Shown: positions 22,012 through 56,590 of the stretch, in pieces
Layout: each line of letters opens with the position of its first letter
How positions within the stretch are numbered: position 1 is the first letter of the stretch
DNA from: Utricularia gibba
Lineage: Eukaryota > Streptophyta > Magnoliopsida > Lamiales > Lentibulariaceae
Direction: 5' to 3'
Assembly: GCA_002189035.1 (NCBI GenBank)
Contig: NEEC01000013.1
Location: 1,550,001-1,614,000, forward strand
Length of the DNA: 64,000 nucleotides
Notes under the pieces: model-generated
The model's input: only the letters and a program-made list of their open reading frames with translations
Database searches by the model: none
What the model was told of the DNA's origin: nothing
Program-made: the position numbers and the translations under genes

Positions 22012-22597
22012 ATGAGCGTCCGTCCTTCCGATCAAGAACCCTCTGAACAGATGATCTCGTGGGGCGGCGGCGTTGGGGCGGGGGGAAAGAGGTCGCTTCT
22101 TCCGGTGCAATTTCTGCAAGAGGGGTTTCTCGAACGCGCAGGCTCTAGGAGGGCACATGAACATACACCGAAAGGATCGCGCCAAGCTGCGGGAGTTCTC
22201 TGAAGAGAATCTGCTGTCTTTGGACATCTCGAAGAGTAATGATTATGATGAGAAGAAGAGATCGGAGGATTTGAAGGAAGAAAGTCGTGTTGCTGATGTT
22301 GTTGTTTCTGCTGCTGTTTCGGTCGAGGAGGAGAATCTGATACCGCTTCTGGGAGACGATCCGGTGATCGGCTGCGATCGGAGGGTTTTCTTGGAGGAGA
22401 ATGGTGAGCTGAGGAAGAGTGTTGTGGGGGAGTTGGATCTTGAGCTTAGGCTTGGGATGGAGCCTCCCGGGTGGAATCAAAGGAGGTGCTGTGACCTGGC
22501 TTTCCGAACATCAATGGCTTCCATGGAGGTTCTGAGCTCTCCATTTGTGTTAAGTGTAACAAGCATTTGCAAATTCGTAATGTCTGATTGGAGGTGA
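22012..22597 (+). CDS. Single C2H2 zinc-finger regulator (SUPERMAN/TAC1 type) with EAR motif; frameshift at a G run
   Basis: The start at 22012 gives [18 protein letters not shown], the usual N-terminus of small QALGGH factors. After a frame change inside the G-rich stretch 22075-22085 the protein continues with the finger [20 protein letters not shown], ending in [14 protein letters not shown], one plant-type C2H2 finger with the QALGGH DNA-contact motif. A Glu-rich linker leads to the EAR repression motif [11 protein letters not shown]1/SUPERMAN-like factors repress or modulate transcription in development. The frame switch needs one base fewer, or two more, in the G runs; the second frame has no ATG of its own before the finger and has a TGA at 22052-22054. 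About 35 residues run beyond the EAR motif, longer than usual. Intronless. Confidence 0.82.
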
Positions 22598-25179
22598 TTC
22601 GCATAGGATACAAACTAAGTCGATTTAGTGGAATCCAAACAAGATTTCCCTCACTAAATTGCTCTCGGTTTCTATGACCGAATCCAAGATGAAGAGTCTG
22701 TCAAGATTGTCTGTGCAGTGTATGGAAGGTGAATAACCAAGAACCACAGTTCACAATATGTGTTTCTTCCACCTTTCTTTGCTTCCTCCAAATCCAAGAA
22801 TCTATCTCAGTATACCAAAATCAAACACAGAAGCCATACCCAATATCACCCAAAGACATGCACACTTGTCTGCTCACAGGTACACATGGACCATTCATGT
22901 TCAAAATACTACCATCCTGCACTATCATCTGGAATTCGAACGTAGGACCTTTTCAAATGCTAGCCATTGGTACAGGCAATGCATAAGGGAAGACTGAAAA
23001 CTAAAGAGGCAACCTGAAATCCATGAGGCCCTAAAGGTTCGACGCCCTTACCTTCCCTGGTTCTATCACGCCCCTGGTTAATTCTCATCCAAGGGAAGAA
23101 ACCTCGATAAGGATCACGGAAAGTGAGAGAGATCCAGGTATTGGGAGACTGCTACGAGATGGGATAATGGAAAAATCTATACCAATGCTTCATGAATTTA
23201 TTGTAACAGCGCCTGAATGCACATGTGTGAAAGCTATCTGGAAAACGGTAAAGGCGTCGATATTTCCCTTTCACCATACCAAAAACCCATGTTACCCAAA
23301 GGTGAAATTTCACAAGTTTCACCTTCACATCTTCTCAGGAATAACGAAATGCATGCCATCACCATAACCAAGCTGAAGATCGAACTTGCAGTAGAGGTTT
23401 GGAGCTCGAAAAGGCCCCCAGAGGAGACACTCCTGGTGCTACAACCGAATGCGACCCGAGTTCGAGTTTCGTTGTATTGTTACTACAGATGCACTAAACA
23501 TATACCGGTTTTTGTAGGAAAAAGACAAGAAGAGCCAAAAACACTCGGTGGGTCCGAGGTGAACAGCTGTGACGTGGACCATACATCGAAGAAATTGATT
23601 ACGTGGACAATCTGCGTCAGAAATAAGATTCATTATTTTCAGAACGCCACCAGGAAGTCCAGTTGTTGTTGGGCCTTCAGGCAGGAGCCCAGTCTGCTAT
23701 TCCCATGCCCGATCCCTATGCTGTCGAACATTTACGCAGCGAATGTTGGAGGAATTTTGTTTAGCAGTGCTGAATCTTGTTTTGTGTCTCTGAACTTGCA
23801 GGTTTTTGGGTGGGTCGTGGAGCAAACAAACGTAAGATCAGTGATCAAGAGTTTTGCACACCAACTGTTTGACAAAATTCTTCAAAGGAAGATATGCAGA
23901 ATTTTTCTTCGTTTTTTGGTAGTAACTTACTTCGTCTTCCTATTCGTATCTAGAGTAATTGTCCAGCAGTTTAAAAGGAATCATTCTCAAGTGAAGTTCA
24001 TCGTTTTCCAACAGGGAAATGCTGCGTGTCGTGTGGACTCCCCTCCCAGTCCCCCTCCACCTGTCGTGTTCGCGCTTTTGGGACACATGCGATGCTGCCA
24101 TCCCCCCTTGTTTTCTATCCCGGGGGCTCGGCACCGATGCAGCACCCCTCTTCACCCGGCTCCGATCCATCCCCGCAGTTGCAGACCACGCAGCCTTATT
24201 TTCGTTACCCCAAGCACAGGTACAGCGTTTAATCATGGAATGAAGATTTGGAGACAGCCCCTGGATATCTTGATGTGACTGTAGAGCGGTTTCGGGTGGT
24301 GGGTGCGTGGCAGCTAGCTATCCTGATGGAACAAGAGAAGAGGGGTTCGTGAACTTGAATCCAAAACACAGCTCAGAAGACTTTGACATGCCCTACAACA
24401 CATGGGCTGCCTCCCTCCTGCCTGTCCGACATACACACCCTACGCGTTTTCTACCTGTCCGGACAAAAACCCGTCCACCCGGAGCCTCTGGTTCAGTTTC
24501 CTGATTAGCATATGGGATTTCGCCTAAGTTCATAATCACTCGATTATTCCTCATCATTATTGCTATTATAAGCTGGATCATGGATTTTTACTTGGTACAG
24601 TAACAAGGGTGACGTTGGTCGTGTGATGGGACGACTATTACATGTAACATGCAGATATGAATAGCTGGTGGGGGACACATCCATCATCTTGTTAATATCT
24701 AGTATAATATAGAAGATTAATATTTAATTTTATATATTTAATATTCATTTAGAATATTTGATAGTTTAAATTTACACATAAATTGAAATGATTAGATAGA
24801 TAACACTTATAAATAAATATAATCTTAATAGTATCCGAATTGTATAACGAAGTCTGATGATAACTAACTATTTCATCTGTAATTTTATTAATAAATAAAA
24901 GAAAGTATAGTATTTTATAAACCAAGGACTCTTATCTTAGGCTGGGATCAAAATACATGATGTTTCAAATTAATTATCTTTGTTTAATTTAATTGATGGG
25001 GAAAATTAAAACAAATGAGTGTCATAAGTGCTAATGACAAGACGTATATATTATGATCAGGCCTAATGTAGGGATCAGCGGTGCAAAATGAGTAAATTAC
25101 CATCCAGTCCCCGTGGTACCTCCTCCCCGCACCGCCAATACGTACGTACAGGAAAATGACGCGCGATCTGCGATCATGC
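22598..25179. other. Uncharacterised 2.6 kb; contains a long orphan open frame (23217-24278)
   Basis: A plus-strand frame of 353 codons is open at 23217-24278, with smaller overlapping frames. Its translation is Cys/Ser-rich, ends Pro/Arg-rich (SPPSPPPPVVFALLG) and resembles no family I know. In another frame 23641-23760 reads VQLLLGLQAGAQSAIPMPD, which looks more protein-like but is also unassigned. Possible explanations are a degraded gene, a lineage-specific gene or a long non-coding transcript. The 24650-25080 end is AT-rich with no signal. Confidence 0.35.
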
Positions 25180-25512
25180 TCAGGAGGCGTAAAATTGGGC
25201 AAGCTCGTCGAGCGATTCCGGCTGGAGATCGGAATTTTCGAGCATCCAAAGGAGGTGCTCGAACAGCACCACCTCGCAGCCGACGGTTATCGACGCGGCG
25301 GCGGCGTCGTGGTGGACGAGTTCTCGGAAAAGCGGATTTTCCAATACATCGGAAGAAATGAGGTACCGCCGCCGCGATTTGCCGACGTAGACGATGTGAA
25401 GATCCTTGGCGGTCGATTCGGATGCCGGAGGGGAGGCGCCGCGGCCGAGCTTCATGAACTGTATTCTCTTGAGAACCGACTTGAGCTTTCCGAGCTTCCC
25501 TCCTTTTGCCAT
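25180..25512 (-). CDS. SAUR-family auxin-responsive small protein
   Basis: Intronless, 110 codons from the chosen Met (MAKGGKLGKLKSVLKR); an in-frame Met seven codons upstream at 25533 is less family-like. The basic N-terminus is followed by the SAUR core: LHIVYVGKSRRRYLISSDVL, then NPLFRELV and an acidic/hydrophobic segment (ITVGCEVVLFEHLLWMLEN). SAURs promote acid-growth cell expansion by inhibiting PP2C.D phosphatases and are quickly induced by auxin. It belongs to the longer-N-terminus SAUR71/72/76/78-like group by its GKLGKLKS start; the subgroup is inference. The frame is intact. A (TG)n and TATATATA stretch at 25536-25560 lies just upstream of the start, in promoter position. Confidence 0.85.
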   Translation of the reverse strand: MAKGGKLGKLKSVLKRIQFMKLGRGASPPASESTAKDLHIVYVGKSRRRYLISSDVLENPLFRELVHHDAAAASITVGCEVVLFEHLLWMLENSDLQPESLDELAQFYAS

Positions 25513-25806
25513 GTCGTGAGAAACGATGACCAAACCTGTGTGTGTGTGTCCCTATATATATGAACTCCAAAGCAGGTAAATAAATATCCACCGAATTGAA
25601 ATCTATTTGAATCCGACGGCCGACAGGGTTTTTCACCAGAAATTATTATTATAATCCGATAATTAAACAATTTTTAATGGATTTTTAACTCCATTTTTAC
25701 AGATCACGTGTTGCTCAGGAGGGAGGGGGCAATCCCTAAGTGCCAACAATGGCGAAAGAAGCTCGAGTTTATTGGCCAGAGAAGGGTCTTGAATCCCGGA
25801 TTCCGG
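25513..25806. other. SAUR promoter / intergenic
   Basis: Contains TGTGTGTGTG and TATATATA just upstream of the SAUR start (likely the core promoter); the remainder shows no coding signal. Confidence 0.4.
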
Positions 25807-26990
25807 TTATTCCGAGGCGGCGGGGAGCTGCTGCCTGATCAAGGCGGAAGTTCGGTCTTCCACAACACTCTGGGTTGTCGATGAAGAAATTGGGGAAGGT
25901 TCATGGCTTTCCGGTACTGGGGTGCGTAAAACATTTCGAGGTATTTCTTGATCCCCTTCTGATCGACATTGGAAGCATGTTTTGAGTGAGCGTACGTATA
26001 TTCCGGCCAGTGTCATTAGTTTGTCTGAGTAGATCTTCCATGTGAACCTGGAAGAAGGACGTGGTATACGTTTCGCTGGTGTTTTGAGTGGAAACAGAGC
26101 AGGGGACTCCTTGCTTCTCCTGGATTGGTTTGAGGCCACTAGCAGCAATGGCTTCCCAGTAAGAGGGATTAATTCTTCTGGCATTTCTCAAAGAAGTCGA
26201 CGAGAATCTGAGCGACCTGGTCACCATTGTAAGGATCGATGTGGAAATCAGACGCCCTGTGGACGATGATCTCTGCCGGGCCGCCGTGAGGAGTGGAAAA
26301 GGTAGGCAGCCCAGAGGCCATGACTTCGATGAGAGTCAGGCGGAAAGCCTCGTAGAATCCAGTCTGCACGAAGATGCCATTGGTGTCAGCAATGCACCTG
26401 TACAGTTCGCCATTCCCCAAACGGTTCATTTGTGAAGAAATCCATCCATCTGAATTGGCCATTCAGTTTGTGCTTCTCTATGAGCTCATCTCAGGGTCTT
26501 CTCACTTTCTAATTTCAGCAAGAACACCCCTGTGCAGTATGCGAGCCACATAGCATTCACAATGCTTGGTCCTCCAGGTCTTTGGATTCCTTCCTCTTGT
26601 CTCCTTAATCCAGGCATTGCGAATGCTGTCTGGCTCTCATACTGTACAGGGGTGTTCTTGCTGAAGTTAGAAAACGAGAAGAAGACCCTGAGATTCAAAA
26701 CAGAGACAGATGATTCATCTTCTCGAATACAGAACCAGAGAGCACTGTCCGGCTATCGCTTGGAATGTGCTGGTGATGATGAAGTCAGTGTGATTCATTG
26801 CATAGAGATCGGCGCTGAATTGGCTTGAAAAATGATACTTCTCATCAAATTTTTTCCAGTATGTATCTGAATCCACGTTGTTTTCTCCAGTGCCTGTGCA
26901 ATTGTACACTTGAAGAAAAAAAATTATTGTCTTATCCAATTCACATGAGATCAAGTAAGAACATCGGTACAAAATTATTGTCTTATCCAC
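25807..26990 (-). pseudogene. Sucrose synthase pseudogene (SUS6/7-like), rearranged and frameshifted
   Basis: Minus-strand pieces are collinear with the GT-B domain of plant sucrose synthase, which interconverts sucrose and UDP-glucose. In order: [15 protein letters not shown] and [13 protein letters not shown] (about 26900-26750); intron remnant; KNTPVQYESQTAFAMPGL (about 26660-26610); GDKRKESKDLED (about 26600-26570); an inverted copy of the previous exon; then [14 protein letters not shown] and ISSQMNR (about 26485-26430), [40 protein letters not shown], and after further shifts FTWKIYSDKLMTLAGIY with a long tail ending at 25807. About 90 residues are deleted between PGL and GDK, an ATGG duplication breaks the frame at about 26445, and further shifts occur near 26170 and 26090. 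The N-terminal half is absent. The tail after LAGIY is longer than in SUS1-4, hence the SUS6/7-like guess. Non-functional as a protein. Confidence 0.88.
26488..26694. repeat. Inverted repeat (foldback) made from a duplicated sucrose synthase exon
   Basis: Left arm 26488-26569 (82 nt) and right arm 26610-26694 (85 nt) are reverse complements with about nine mismatches and one 3-nt gap, around a 40-nt loop. Both arms contain the 3' end of a SUS intron and the start of the next exon: the right arm reads QYESQTAFAMPGL on the minus strand and the left reads QYASHIAFTMLG on the plus strand. The loop is also SUS coding sequence (KRKESKDLED, minus strand). Confidence 0.92.
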
Positions 26991-27818
26991 GTCTTTTAAA
27001 ATACACTTAGTTAAAAAAAGTTAATAGATTACTGACATTTAATTATATTAAATAATATATTTAATTACATATTTGATATTAATGATATTTAACATTAAAA
27101 ATTAAATAATCAATCAATTTTTTTATTTAATCCGATATTCATGGTGATAAAAACAATTTATTAGGTAAGTTTAATTAATTTTATGCGATAAATATTGTAT
27201 TACTCTTATTATTTTTATAGAAATTTCTCCAATTTTGTATTATGCATATTTTAGTAATATTGTATATAATTTTAATTAATGATAAATAAATTTTAATTAA
27301 ATAATTCAAATCGTTTATGTTTATATAAATTAGTTATAGTATTCTTTAATATTGAATAAATTAATGGGCTGAGTATTTGCATTGGCATATGAAAGAAGCC
27401 TGGGCTGGTAGGCCCATCATGAAAAAAGATACAGGCTCATCATGAAAAAAGATACATAGGCCCATTTACATGCTCCAGTGGCCCAGTTAGATTGACAGCT
27501 ATGAGTACACTACAGTACCTGTGCAGCTATAAAAGTGGCTTCATCTCCCAATCTTACTCTCTGCTTTGTCTTCGTGGAGTTGCCCCTGAAGCAGAATGAA
27601 ATGGTTCAGAAAGAATTGATAGCTCAAGTTTATTATTTATATACACCCTCGCCCAAGTCTCCGACTGGCAGCCAAACATGCGAGCATTGGAAATGGAAAA
27701 ACAAGGCTAAACAATGGAGGATCTCAGACAACTTGTTTCAAGATGCTGAGTTGATTGCAGGGTGCTTGCTTCCTTCTTGCTCAGCAGGTAGCCAAGGAGT
27801 TGAATGTGATTGAAACAG
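26991..27818. other. Intergenic; SAC 3' flank at right
   Basis: AT-rich with no coding signal to about 27350. Around 27360-27490 there are several GGCCCA/GGGCT-type motifs and a near-duplicate pair (CATGAAAAAAGATACA twice, 27418-27455). From 27500 on it should be the 3' UTR of the SAC gene; small plus-strand frames here are antisense to it. Confidence 0.45.
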
Positions 27819-30800
27819 TTAATGGAAAAATGCTTCTCCGTGGGCTACCCATTGCACAAAACTGTCTGAAAATCCATCAGGGACTTCGTTGTCGGTTGTT
27901 TCACACAACCCAACTTCAGTTTCAGGGCCATCACTCATCTACAGATGCATGAAGGTGGCATTATGAAGCTGGGGATTCATGTCAGAGTGATCAAAATATG
28001 TAGACTTGCCTGTGGCTGTGTTCTGGAGATGGAATCATTGGTAGATGGTGTTATTTCGTGGACCGGCACGTTGATAACATTTTCCGATGACATCCTTGAT
28101 GTTGCTGGAGTCCCTCCCAGGAATGATCTGATGACGAAAAATAAACATCTTCAGAGTTTTTCTTTTTGTTCATTCCACTTTCAGCCTGTTGAGCTGTATG
28201 TTGCTTGGGAGATAACCATATTGTACATACATCTATGCTACAGTTTCGAATGTCAGTTTTCCAATCAATCCCAGTGGCATAAAATTTCAAGCTTTATAAA
28301 AAAAAATCAAGTATATATATGAAGGAATTCAGAAGAAGTACCTTTCAAATAACTCTTCGTCGAATGAGTTTCCAGAGGAAGAGAGCCAATCCAAGTCCAC
28401 AAAGTTTGAGCAGGTGATTGGCTCCCCGGGTTCATTCTCAGAATATCTATCTCTGCGCATTTCCGCAAGAAGCACCCTTGCATGCATCGAAGAAATGCAT
28501 CTTCACATGCACAATCCAAGAGCAATGAGGCAAAAGTAAGTAGGACCAAGTTTGGGATTCGAGTTTTCAAATTTAGACAACATAACCGGAAGGGGTATCT
28601 AAATGGGATATGTAGATAGAGCCAAATCCAGACGAGGTAAGAGAAGTCCCGAACCTTGAATATGCCAACCCTCTTTGGGATGCGGATATTTCAGGTGCAG
28701 ACTCGAAATTCTCCCTTTGTTCTGACGCATCCAAGAAAGCAGCACCAGGGAAATCCTTGTTATTGTCTGCTGTTGATGAAGGTGAGTTTTCATGAAGAAT
28801 ATTGCCATCTGAAAACGATCTTCTGAAAAGTGACCTACCATATATGCAAATGAAGATGAGACAGAAGAAAAACCGCCTTTGCTTAAAGCACAAATTCTTC
28901 AAACGACTTAATTGCAGAGATAAAAGGAAATAAACGGTGTATATGAGTACCAATGGAAGTTGAGTTATTCCAACAGAACTAAAAATTTTGATATTCCTAT
29001 TTCCAGGTAGAAATAAGAATATTCATAGGGTTCGTACCTTCTGGTTTTATCGCTGATTGGCAGTTTTGGTTCTCTGATGCCATTACCCTGCTCAGCACCA
29101 GATCCCCAAGGATCTGTTTTATTAGGCTTAGGCTGCAAATTACCTAGAAAACTGCCCGAGTATTGAACTCCTATCAATGCCCACATTATAAGAAACGTGC
29201 AGAAACATGTAAGCCGAGCAAAAAATCATGCTTGCAAAGAATCCAGCTCCAAGTTTAGATGGACATTTATAAGGGAGGAGGCACAAGGTCAATCCAGGTA
29301 CACATAAAGGCATATATGATACTAAGTACCACTGCAACCAACTCACACGTTAATGGCCCTTTGTTTATCTGGATCCACATAAGAATTGCTGTAATATCTT
29401 TGAAGAGTTCGCAAAAACTCCAGGGAATGTGCCGCTGCTTTCCACTGGCCTCTTCGCTCCGAGAAAATCTATTATGTAAATATTAGATATATGAGAAGAA
29501 CGGGGCATAGTTCACATGAATGACAAATTGTGACTAATAAGAGTTCAAATATGAGAAATGGCATTTTCTTTTACCTTGTTGTGGGCAGCAGATCCACTAT
29601 ATTGCTGCGCAAGAGTATCACCCATCTTTTCATAATAACGTATGAGTTCTTCAACCAAAGGATCTTCGAGGTTCATCTTTGTTGAGGATCTTAAGCCTAA
29701 GGTGTGCAACTGATGCCCCAAAGCAACCAAACCATATGAAAATTGTGCTACATTTGTCCTATCCAAACAATCAATACAATTTGTCCGAAGCACACCCTTT
29801 TGCGTCAATAGTGGCTTCACAGAAGGATTGATGTCACCAGTACTATTAGTCCTGCTGGACTTTTCATTTGAGCCGACACCGTTGGTCTCCTTTTCATTGG
29901 GTTCCAAAGCATCAATGAAACTGTAAGCTGAACCAGACATGCTGGGAGCAACAAAATTCCAAAGACACATCAATGATAGTTCTAGAAATAGTACCTATTC
30001 ATGACTAAAATGTAATGAGAAGGCCATAAATTAAAGACAAGACGCTTATTGTAACTATTTTTTAAAAATAAGATGCAAGATCTCGTTAACTATAAAACAA
30101 ATTCTGAAGAAGATACGGAAGGATACTGCTGGTTTGGTTGACATTTTTCACAGAAATTTTTAATTCAGTATAATAATCTCTTTTTCTTCTGCTACAGAAA
30201 AAAAAAAAATCTCTGTTTCTTGCAGGCAGTTGTTGCTTTTAGGGAACAACATGCATGGACAAGAGCAAAGGGGATTAAATAGTGGTGCCATAAAAAAAAA
30301 GGGAACTGAAGGACTTCAAGGAACTCACTCGAGAGTAGACCATTTAATCCACTGATCAGATAGCATGCCAGGTGTGATTTGGAAACAGAAGAATCCGGTT
30401 AGTGTCAAAGCATAGGCAGCCACCTTCCCCAAAAGAAGTAAAGCATCTTTTGACTTGCTGCTGAAAACCAGAAAGAACCAACAATATTAGGCTTTATACA
30501 GCAAAAAGATGAATGACAGAAAAAAATATATTCCAAGTACCTGTTCGAGTATTTATGCAGGTCCAAATGTACAAATCTAAGTTGGCTTTCTTCAGATAGA
30601 TCCTTATTAATGGCTTGAATAGCATTAGAAAATTCTGCACGAAGGACGGATTCTCTAGGTTTTTTCTCAGTTGTCTGTAGACAAAGAGTAACAAGATCTC
30701 TAGTATTCAGCACAGTTGGTGCATCAATTAAAAGCAGGGCTATAAGCCTCCCACCTTAATCAAGTTGAAAATTATGATGGGGTTTCCATATCGCTCCACC

Positions 30801-55281: not shown

Positions 55282-56590
55282 GGCCATCAAAGCAATGGAA
55301 TCAAATGATCCCAATTATCACAAGAAAATGGTTTCCATGGAGAGCAGAATCAGAGGAGTAGGTCAAAGTGGGCCGGAGGTAGATAGCGGGCTCAGATCAT
55401 TTGGGTGCATATTTGAGCCGAAGAAACAATGTCAGCCTCAAGTCAGAGCACGCTGAAGCTCCATCTAGCCCAAGATAGGCGAACCCTACAACCCCAACGC
55501 ATTTGTCAGTCATAACACTCCTGTTAGAGTGGAGATTCTCTGAACGGCGACCATTTCTCCGCCGCGAGATTGTTGCTGATCCCCTCGTCGGCGTTCAGGT
55601 ATGCTGCTTCCTGATTTCTCCTTGTTTTAAATATACGACATTCATTTATGAGATTTCTCTTCAAGGTTCGGATCGCTTGGTTTGTCTATGCTTATTGAAC
55701 TTTATTTTGTAGGAAACACTAAATAATAAAGAATCAAAATCCTCTAACGTTGAAAAAATCTCGAATCTTTGAATTACTATACATGCATAATGTTGTTTGG
55801 GCTCTCGATTTCATTAAACAGAATGCAGAGAGTTCTAAAATCCCAATCTACATCAAGAATTATAAAATCCTCTGCTTTCTCTTTGGTGACATCGAGAGCC
55901 CAAACAATTATGTATATCAAAAAATTCAAAGATTTGATCTTTCTAACAATATAAGTTTTGGCCATCTACAAATCGTGAACACCAAAGGTGACTTGCTACA
56001 AATAGACGGATGCATATGGATTCTAAATAGTTTAAAAGGTCCATCTATAATGAAATTTTGGTATATGGAAATTAATCAAACACATTGAATATATGGATGT
56101 TTAATTTTAATTGATTTGTTCATATACTAGAGGTTTTTGAGATCGAATTTGCATCCTCCTTCCTTACATGCAAAGCCTTTTGGGTTTCACATATTTTCTA
56201 GAAACCTAAATCAATCTAATAAATTAGACTTTATACACAAATGACAATCATCTCATCTTCAAACCTATTAAGGCTTTGTTCATCTTCAATCCAATGAAGG
56301 CTCAGCTCATCCTCTAAGAAGTTGACAGTCAAGAAATCAAAAGCATATTTTGGGAAATATATGTAATAACAGGTCATTTAACTTTCATTCCCATATTTGG
56401 TTTTGGCTTTTCCCAGTGTTAGGCTGCCTAATCATCAGGATACTTGGGTATCTTTCTTGAAATTTAACAGCATCTTCTTGTTCATGAAAGTTAGATCAAT
56501 GCTATGCACCCATGAACCAAGAAGATTCTGCAGCTTCTGTGACTTGGACAGGTATTTTTCTCACGGATGTAGACTTTCGTGGTGATCATC
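55282..56590. other. Intergenic with a foldback element
   Basis: No recognised gene. 55282-55520 is the upstream region of the minus-strand gene. 55764-55934 is a foldback (separate entry). 56390-56590 contains unassigned sequence just before the RPL7 remnant. Confidence 0.45.
55764..55934. repeat. Imperfect inverted repeat, possible MIRNA-like foldback or MITE
   Basis: Left arm 55764-55830 and right arm 55870-55934 are reverse complements with a 2-nt bulge, a few mismatches and a 39-nt loop. The best paired block is TGTTTGGGCTCTCGAT (55794-55809) against 55891-55906, 16 perfect pairs. Unlike the 26.5-kb hairpin, its arms match no gene I recognise. Confidence 0.8.

Follow-up and report, generated by a model that had tools for sequence, protein, structure and literature searches.

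Fold-back inversions at breaks in yeast involve imperfect inverted microhomology (10 bp) and a loop of 41 nt; they copy 2 to ~150 bp, and the median microhomology on rejoining is 2 bp (PMC11724301). Stem-loop extension by Pol theta, the source of inverted templated insertions, can begin from two terminal base pairs, and templated insertions are found in plants according to the same paper (PMC11292364). Template switching makes RNA hairpins in one step (PMC8794818). In rice, inverted pairs of pseudogenes give siRNAs from the pair, while none were detected from the parent gene (PMC2708354), and the inverted-duplication model derives MIRNA genes from adjacent inverted duplication of gene fragments (Allen et al. 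2004; pseudogene update PMC3237417). A literature search for sucrose synthase (SUS) of Utricularia gibba yielded nothing on the SUS pseudogene locus described here. The hairpin in this pseudogene is of a kind already known and constitutes a well-resolved new instance of it. Very probably, it is a mutational relic of a fold-back (intra-strand template-switch) DNA synthesis accident in a decaying SUS copy.

The window, i.e. the whole 64-kb stretch of DNA that was analysed (C375:1550001-1614000), belongs to a genome of 100,091,633 bases in 516 contigs. L027 denotes coordinates on the SUS sequence of contig C142 (L027 2858-2862 = C142:298357-298361). The features of the locus are the following:

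26488..26569, plus strand: arm 1, a non-native inverted copy of the pseudogene's intron-exon junction, which breaks the colinear homology to C142
26570..26609, minus strand: loop, a native SUS segment, the minus strand of which contains GDKRKESKDLEDQ
26610..26694, minus strand: arm 2, the native end of an intron and start of an exon of the SUS pseudogene, reading KNTPVQYESQTAFAMPGL
26563..26568, minus strand: junction 1, putative priming microhomology, loop-native CAAGCA against CAGGCA of the inverted arm 2, with the partner site at 26611-26616
26488..26489, no strand assigned: junction 2, a 2-bp AT microhomology where SUS colinearity resumes, with ~16 bp lost relative to C142
25906..26918, minus strand: SUS pseudogene, by blastn and tblastn against five SUS loci, with Pfam GT-B_Sucrose_synth and Glycos_transf_1 remnants
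25183..25512, minus strand: SAUR gene (Auxin_inducible, Pfam PF02519), the 3' neighbour of the pseudogene
29545..30755, minus strand: part of a SAC-domain phosphatase-like gene, the 5' neighbour of the pseudogene, with a Syja_N remnant under the Pfam cut-off

A scan of the window for inverted repeats returned the arms and the 40-nt loop at the very positions given in a preliminary description of this DNA. Its account of 82-bp arms of about 89% identity is fair, as is its wording of a head-to-head duplicated exon: the arms measure 82 and 85 nt, and global alignment of arm 1 with the reverse complement of arm 2 gives 73 identical columns of 85, made up of 82 ungapped columns with 9 mismatches and one 3-nt indel (89% identity over ungapped columns, 86% with the indel counted). 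RNA folding, which the preliminary description had named as a check on the stem, assigns the region 26488-26694 a minimum free energy (MFE) of -135.8 kcal/mol (z = -17.5); dinucleotide-shuffled controls average -53.5 (sd 4.7), and 0 of 200 reach the value of the hairpin. The stem is predicted to be strong whichever strand is transcribed, and the long, near-complementary arms are those of a stem-loop precursor. The same blastn scan at fourteen other places, amounting to 140 kb of the same genome, found no inverted repeats with arms of at least 40 bp, so the hairpin is not a common background feature. It is single-copy in the genome, and its genomic matches are SUS loci only; a MITE or other transposable element, from which dispersed copies would be expected, is thereby rejected as its origin.

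That the hairpin lies within a SUS pseudogene, as described before, is borne out by the blastn and tblastn homology and the Pfam remnants. A search with the Pfam SUS model identified five other SUS loci in the genome (C142, C414, C3, C413 and C1), of which that on C142 is the nearest to the pseudogene (~80% DNA identity, introns included); positions 26918-25906 are the homologue of the second half of the C142 gene. The pseudogene carries a 5' truncation, frameshifts, 4-bp insertions, a ~379-bp deletion and the fold-back insertion. Its introns are retained, which rules out origin as a retrocopy. A homology search found no SUS exons of the 5' half elsewhere in the 64-kb window. Separately, the C142 SUS gene shows a 1-bp frameshift at C142:298357-298361 (L027 ~2858-2862), GGG-TC for the expected GGGGTC, in IADTKG^VFVQ, which is either a homopolymer sequencing error or pseudogenisation starting in the C142 copy too. 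At 27410-27455, upstream of the pseudogene, lies a tandem pair of the 23-bp unit AGGCCCATCATGAAAAAAGATAC, the two copies being 96% identical.

The surroundings of the pseudogene bear on its origin. Across 22055-30755, the best paralogues of a zinc-finger gene, the SAUR gene and the SAC-like gene each adjoin a different SUS locus. That of the zinc-finger gene (22055-22597) is situated at C414:2853 kb, ~3 kb away from SUS on that contig; that of the SAUR gene is at C142:319358, at a distance of 21 kb from SUS on C142, and that of the SAC-like gene at C3:933037, ~4 kb away from SUS on C3. Because these paralogues adjoin the C414, C142 and C3 SUS loci, we infer that four SUS loci, those of C375, C142, C3 and C414, belong to related blocks, a pattern to be expected when a genome duplicates as a whole and then loses genes. 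The pseudogene is probably a whole-genome-duplication leftover.

As the preliminary description had proposed, both arms derive from one and the same SUS intron-exon junction (C142:297744-297812), which they match in opposite orientations, and the loop derives from a different SUS segment (C142:298192-298233). Identity of the arms is 88% with the C142 SUS gene and 81-83% with the C414 SUS gene, again in opposite orientations. Arm 2 is the native copy, because 26918-26606 is colinear with C142, running contiguously with L027 1994-2313 through an upstream exon, an intron and the start of an exon. The loop segment codes for GDKRKESKDLEDQA; positions 26563-26604 match L027 2734-2693 at 93%, and the loop is colinear with arm 2 once the ~379-bp deletion relative to C142 is allowed for. 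Arm 1, being SUS-sense on the plus strand, runs opposite to the pseudogene. Along the minus strand the order is therefore upstream exon, intron, arm 2, ~379-bp gap, loop, arm 1 and resumed colinearity.

Both ends of arm 1 carry short homologies. Loop homology stops at L027 2734, and SUS colinearity picks up again at L027 2751 (26489 downwards), where the AT of junction 2 is found. At junction 1, where the loop segment ends, the SUS copies of C142, C414 and C3 all read CAAGC(A/G)GAGATGA, and since these functional copies carry this motif there, the CAAGCA of the pseudogene is native to the loop. Immediately after CAAGCA, the pseudogene switches to the reverse complement of arm 2, in which the matching bases are CAGGCA. 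A comparable priming site was seen in 17% of trials with shuffled arms, and the loop-side microhomology thus backs a fold-back model but proves little alone and falls short of proof.

The template of arm 1 was the pseudogene, already separated from C142, rather than any functional SUS gene, as judged from derived states which the arms share and which the other SUS genes compared do not have. Over 54 exon columns, two states (columns 18 and 40) are common to both arms and absent from C142, C414 and C3. In the intron, both arms share differences from C142, including the absence of an 8-bp stretch. These states reject a functional SUS gene as the donor; read from the sequence comparison, they point to the same locus as the source, not strictly to the same DNA strand. 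Private changes in the exon are balanced, with about three per arm, one of those in arm 1 being the loop-native primer base. The Jukes-Cantor (JC) distance between the arms is 0.11-0.12, compared with 0.18 between the pseudogene and C142, its nearest SUS relative, outside the arms, which suggests that, measured against the age of the pseudogene, the inverted duplication is not a recent one; with such small counts the estimate is rough. Of the earlier proposal of a young inverted duplication taken from the functional target gene, the inverted duplication of a SUS fragment is confirmed by the anatomy; its youth and its derivation from the functional gene are contradicted by the distance between the arms and by the shared derived states.

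For the strand-level course, the polymerase activity and the order in which truncation, deletion and fold-back took place, we infer the following. A 3' terminus lying in the loop segment, with CAAGCA as its last bases, would have folded back on its own strand and paired with a near-complementary exon site ~40 nt upstream, with one mismatch, so priming synthesis. Extension over ~75-80 nt would have copied first the exon and then the intron in reverse, and the new end would have returned to the original locus through 2 bp of matching sequence, with the loss of ~16 bp. The outcome would have been a near-perfect palindrome, subject thereafter to neutral decay in both arms. The loop-native A retained at junction 1 is as expected if CAAGCA annealed and primed. 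It is more likely that the ~379-bp deletion preceded the fold-back, or that both were one complex event, because the loop comprises 40 nt and not ~420 nt.

What a fold-back origin predicts is found at this locus: an inverted copy of directly adjacent sequence between colinear flanks, inverted microhomology on the loop side with a short rejoining microhomology (CAAGCA/CAGGCA and AT, with the 17% chance level to be kept in mind), and a source in the same locus rather than in a paralogue. In its imperfect inverted microhomology, its ~40-nt loop, the inverted adjacent copy and the rejoining at ~2 bp, the hairpin resembles the yeast fold-backs (PMC11724301). Experimental fold-back insertions, in contrast, are mostly under 14-34 bp, whereas the SUS hairpin is an evolved relic of ~80 nt. 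With template-switch hairpins it shares the formation of a near-perfect stem in a single local event; the stems so described are for the most part short and situated in rRNA genes, whereas the SUS hairpin is long and belongs to a plant pseudogene (PMC8794818). The second fold-back of like layout in the window, at 55761-55937, also speaks for this origin. Against the fold-back reading it has to be said that ~80 nt is a long tract by the standards of fold-back insertions and that two separate processes, a deletion and then an inverted insertion, may be required. The fold-back signature is explicable without any function, and the hairpin presumably has none.

Other explanations of the structure have to be weighed against this one. 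Long reads can carry inverted artefacts, and the source assembly is likely a long-read assembly, so that a palindromic or missed-adapter PacBio read, or a misjoin, might be suspected of having produced the hairpin. Such an artefact would give near-identical arms, yet the arms differ at 9 sites and by a 3-nt indel, one of the mismatches falls on the junction base that is native to the loop, and unique colinear sequence flanks the inverted copy on both sides. As both arms have diverged since, neither a recent origin nor a missed-adapter read is likely, and an assembly artefact, rejected by the substitutions, the indel and the colinear flanks, is highly improbable. MIRNA genes arising from juxtaposed inverted pseudogenes have been described (PMC3237417), and by analogy the hairpin could have arisen when an insertion from a second SUS gene placed two independent SUS fragments in inverted arrangement. 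The nearest other SUS copies lack the derived states shared by the arms, however, and the genome search revealed no better-fitting copy elsewhere, which makes inter-locus insertion extremely improbable.

A different question is whether the hairpin, once born by fold-back, has been retained or is at least active as a source of small RNAs. It would then be transcribed, diced to 21-24-nt siRNAs as a proto-MIRNA or hpRNA, and dampen functional SUS mRNAs in trans. In favour of this are the strong stem predicted on both the plus and the minus strand and the conservation of DCL1 and AGO1 in U. gibba (PMC8333044). There are, moreover, precedents in pseudogene-derived MIRNA genes of rice and Arabidopsis (PMC3237417) and in the siRNA-producing inverted pseudogene pairs of rice, with their 83%-identical duplex of 185 nt (PMC2708354). 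High complementarity to functional SUS transcripts, anticipated in the preliminary description, is supported by the homology of both arms to the C142 and C414 genes and by low target scores: a simple plant target scoring on genomic sequence, with intron and native-loop stretches included, placed 66 21-mers from the plus strand and 40 from the minus strand at a score of 4 or below against the C142 SUS gene, and fewer against C414 and C3. The intron stretches among these placements would be absent from mRNA, and the native loop on the plus strand is antisense to SUS with 0 mismatches over 26 nt. Complementarity to SUS is, however, an automatic result of homology and not evidence for function. 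The 5' half of the gene is missing from the window, the two arms have accumulated changes independently of each other without any indication that pairing was maintained, and only 2 putative species-specific miRNA loci are reported from U. gibba (PMC8333044). Small-RNA libraries of U. gibba are deposited under BioProject PRJNA526734. Among the known MIRNA families of Rfam 15, none reached its gathering score (best MIR2600, 26.6 bits vs 98), and identity with a known miRNA is rejected accordingly. Taken together, a small-RNA role for the hairpin appears unlikely.

With the rice pairs the hairpin has in common that it is an inverted repeat of pseudogene sequence with a duplex of similar identity, but its stem is less than half as long and its loop measures 40 nt instead of 1,283 nt; small-RNA reads identified the rice loci, the DNA sequence the SUS hairpin (PMC2708354). 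The inverted-duplication model of MIRNA birth (Allen et al. 2004; PMC3237417) likewise involves an adjacent inverted duplication of a gene fragment with complementarity to the family. The SUS hairpin differs in that its source is the pseudogene itself and its arms are already well diverged, and any transcript or small RNA from it would be hypothetical. That a fold-back accident in a whole-genome-duplicate leftover gave rise to a working siRNA hairpin which tunes the surviving SUS homeologues is very unlikely. If true, it would mean that fractionation itself yields new regulators of retained copies, in a plant for which a truncated DCL3 and a scarcity of 24-nt siRNAs have been reported.

Under the preferred fold-back reading, the locus offers a clean case in which the generating event is legible in the sequence as a native arm, a retained primer base, a copied arm and a rejoining point, and the step so legible is the one left open by the inverted-duplication model of MIRNA birth. 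Should small RNAs be found, leftovers of whole-genome duplication would be linked to new regulation of a surviving gene; without them, the hairpin is an ordinary, well-resolved mutational scar.

Fold-back inverted duplications number two in the window and none in the 140 kb elsewhere, figures too small for any rate claim. The second, an inverted repeat at 55761-55937 (RNA fold z = -13.8), has both arms matching one locus, C2:2191430-2191528, in opposite directions. Pfam searches with 24- and 32-aa pieces of its source gave no match, the pieces being short; by eye, this source resembles the remnant of a retroelement gag (FDGQNFRCWK). Homology to C2 carries on beyond the right arm, which is the native one; the left arm is the inverted copy and starts, on the loop side, at the inverted microhomology GGGATT/AATCCC, so that the layout is the same as that of the SUS fold-back.
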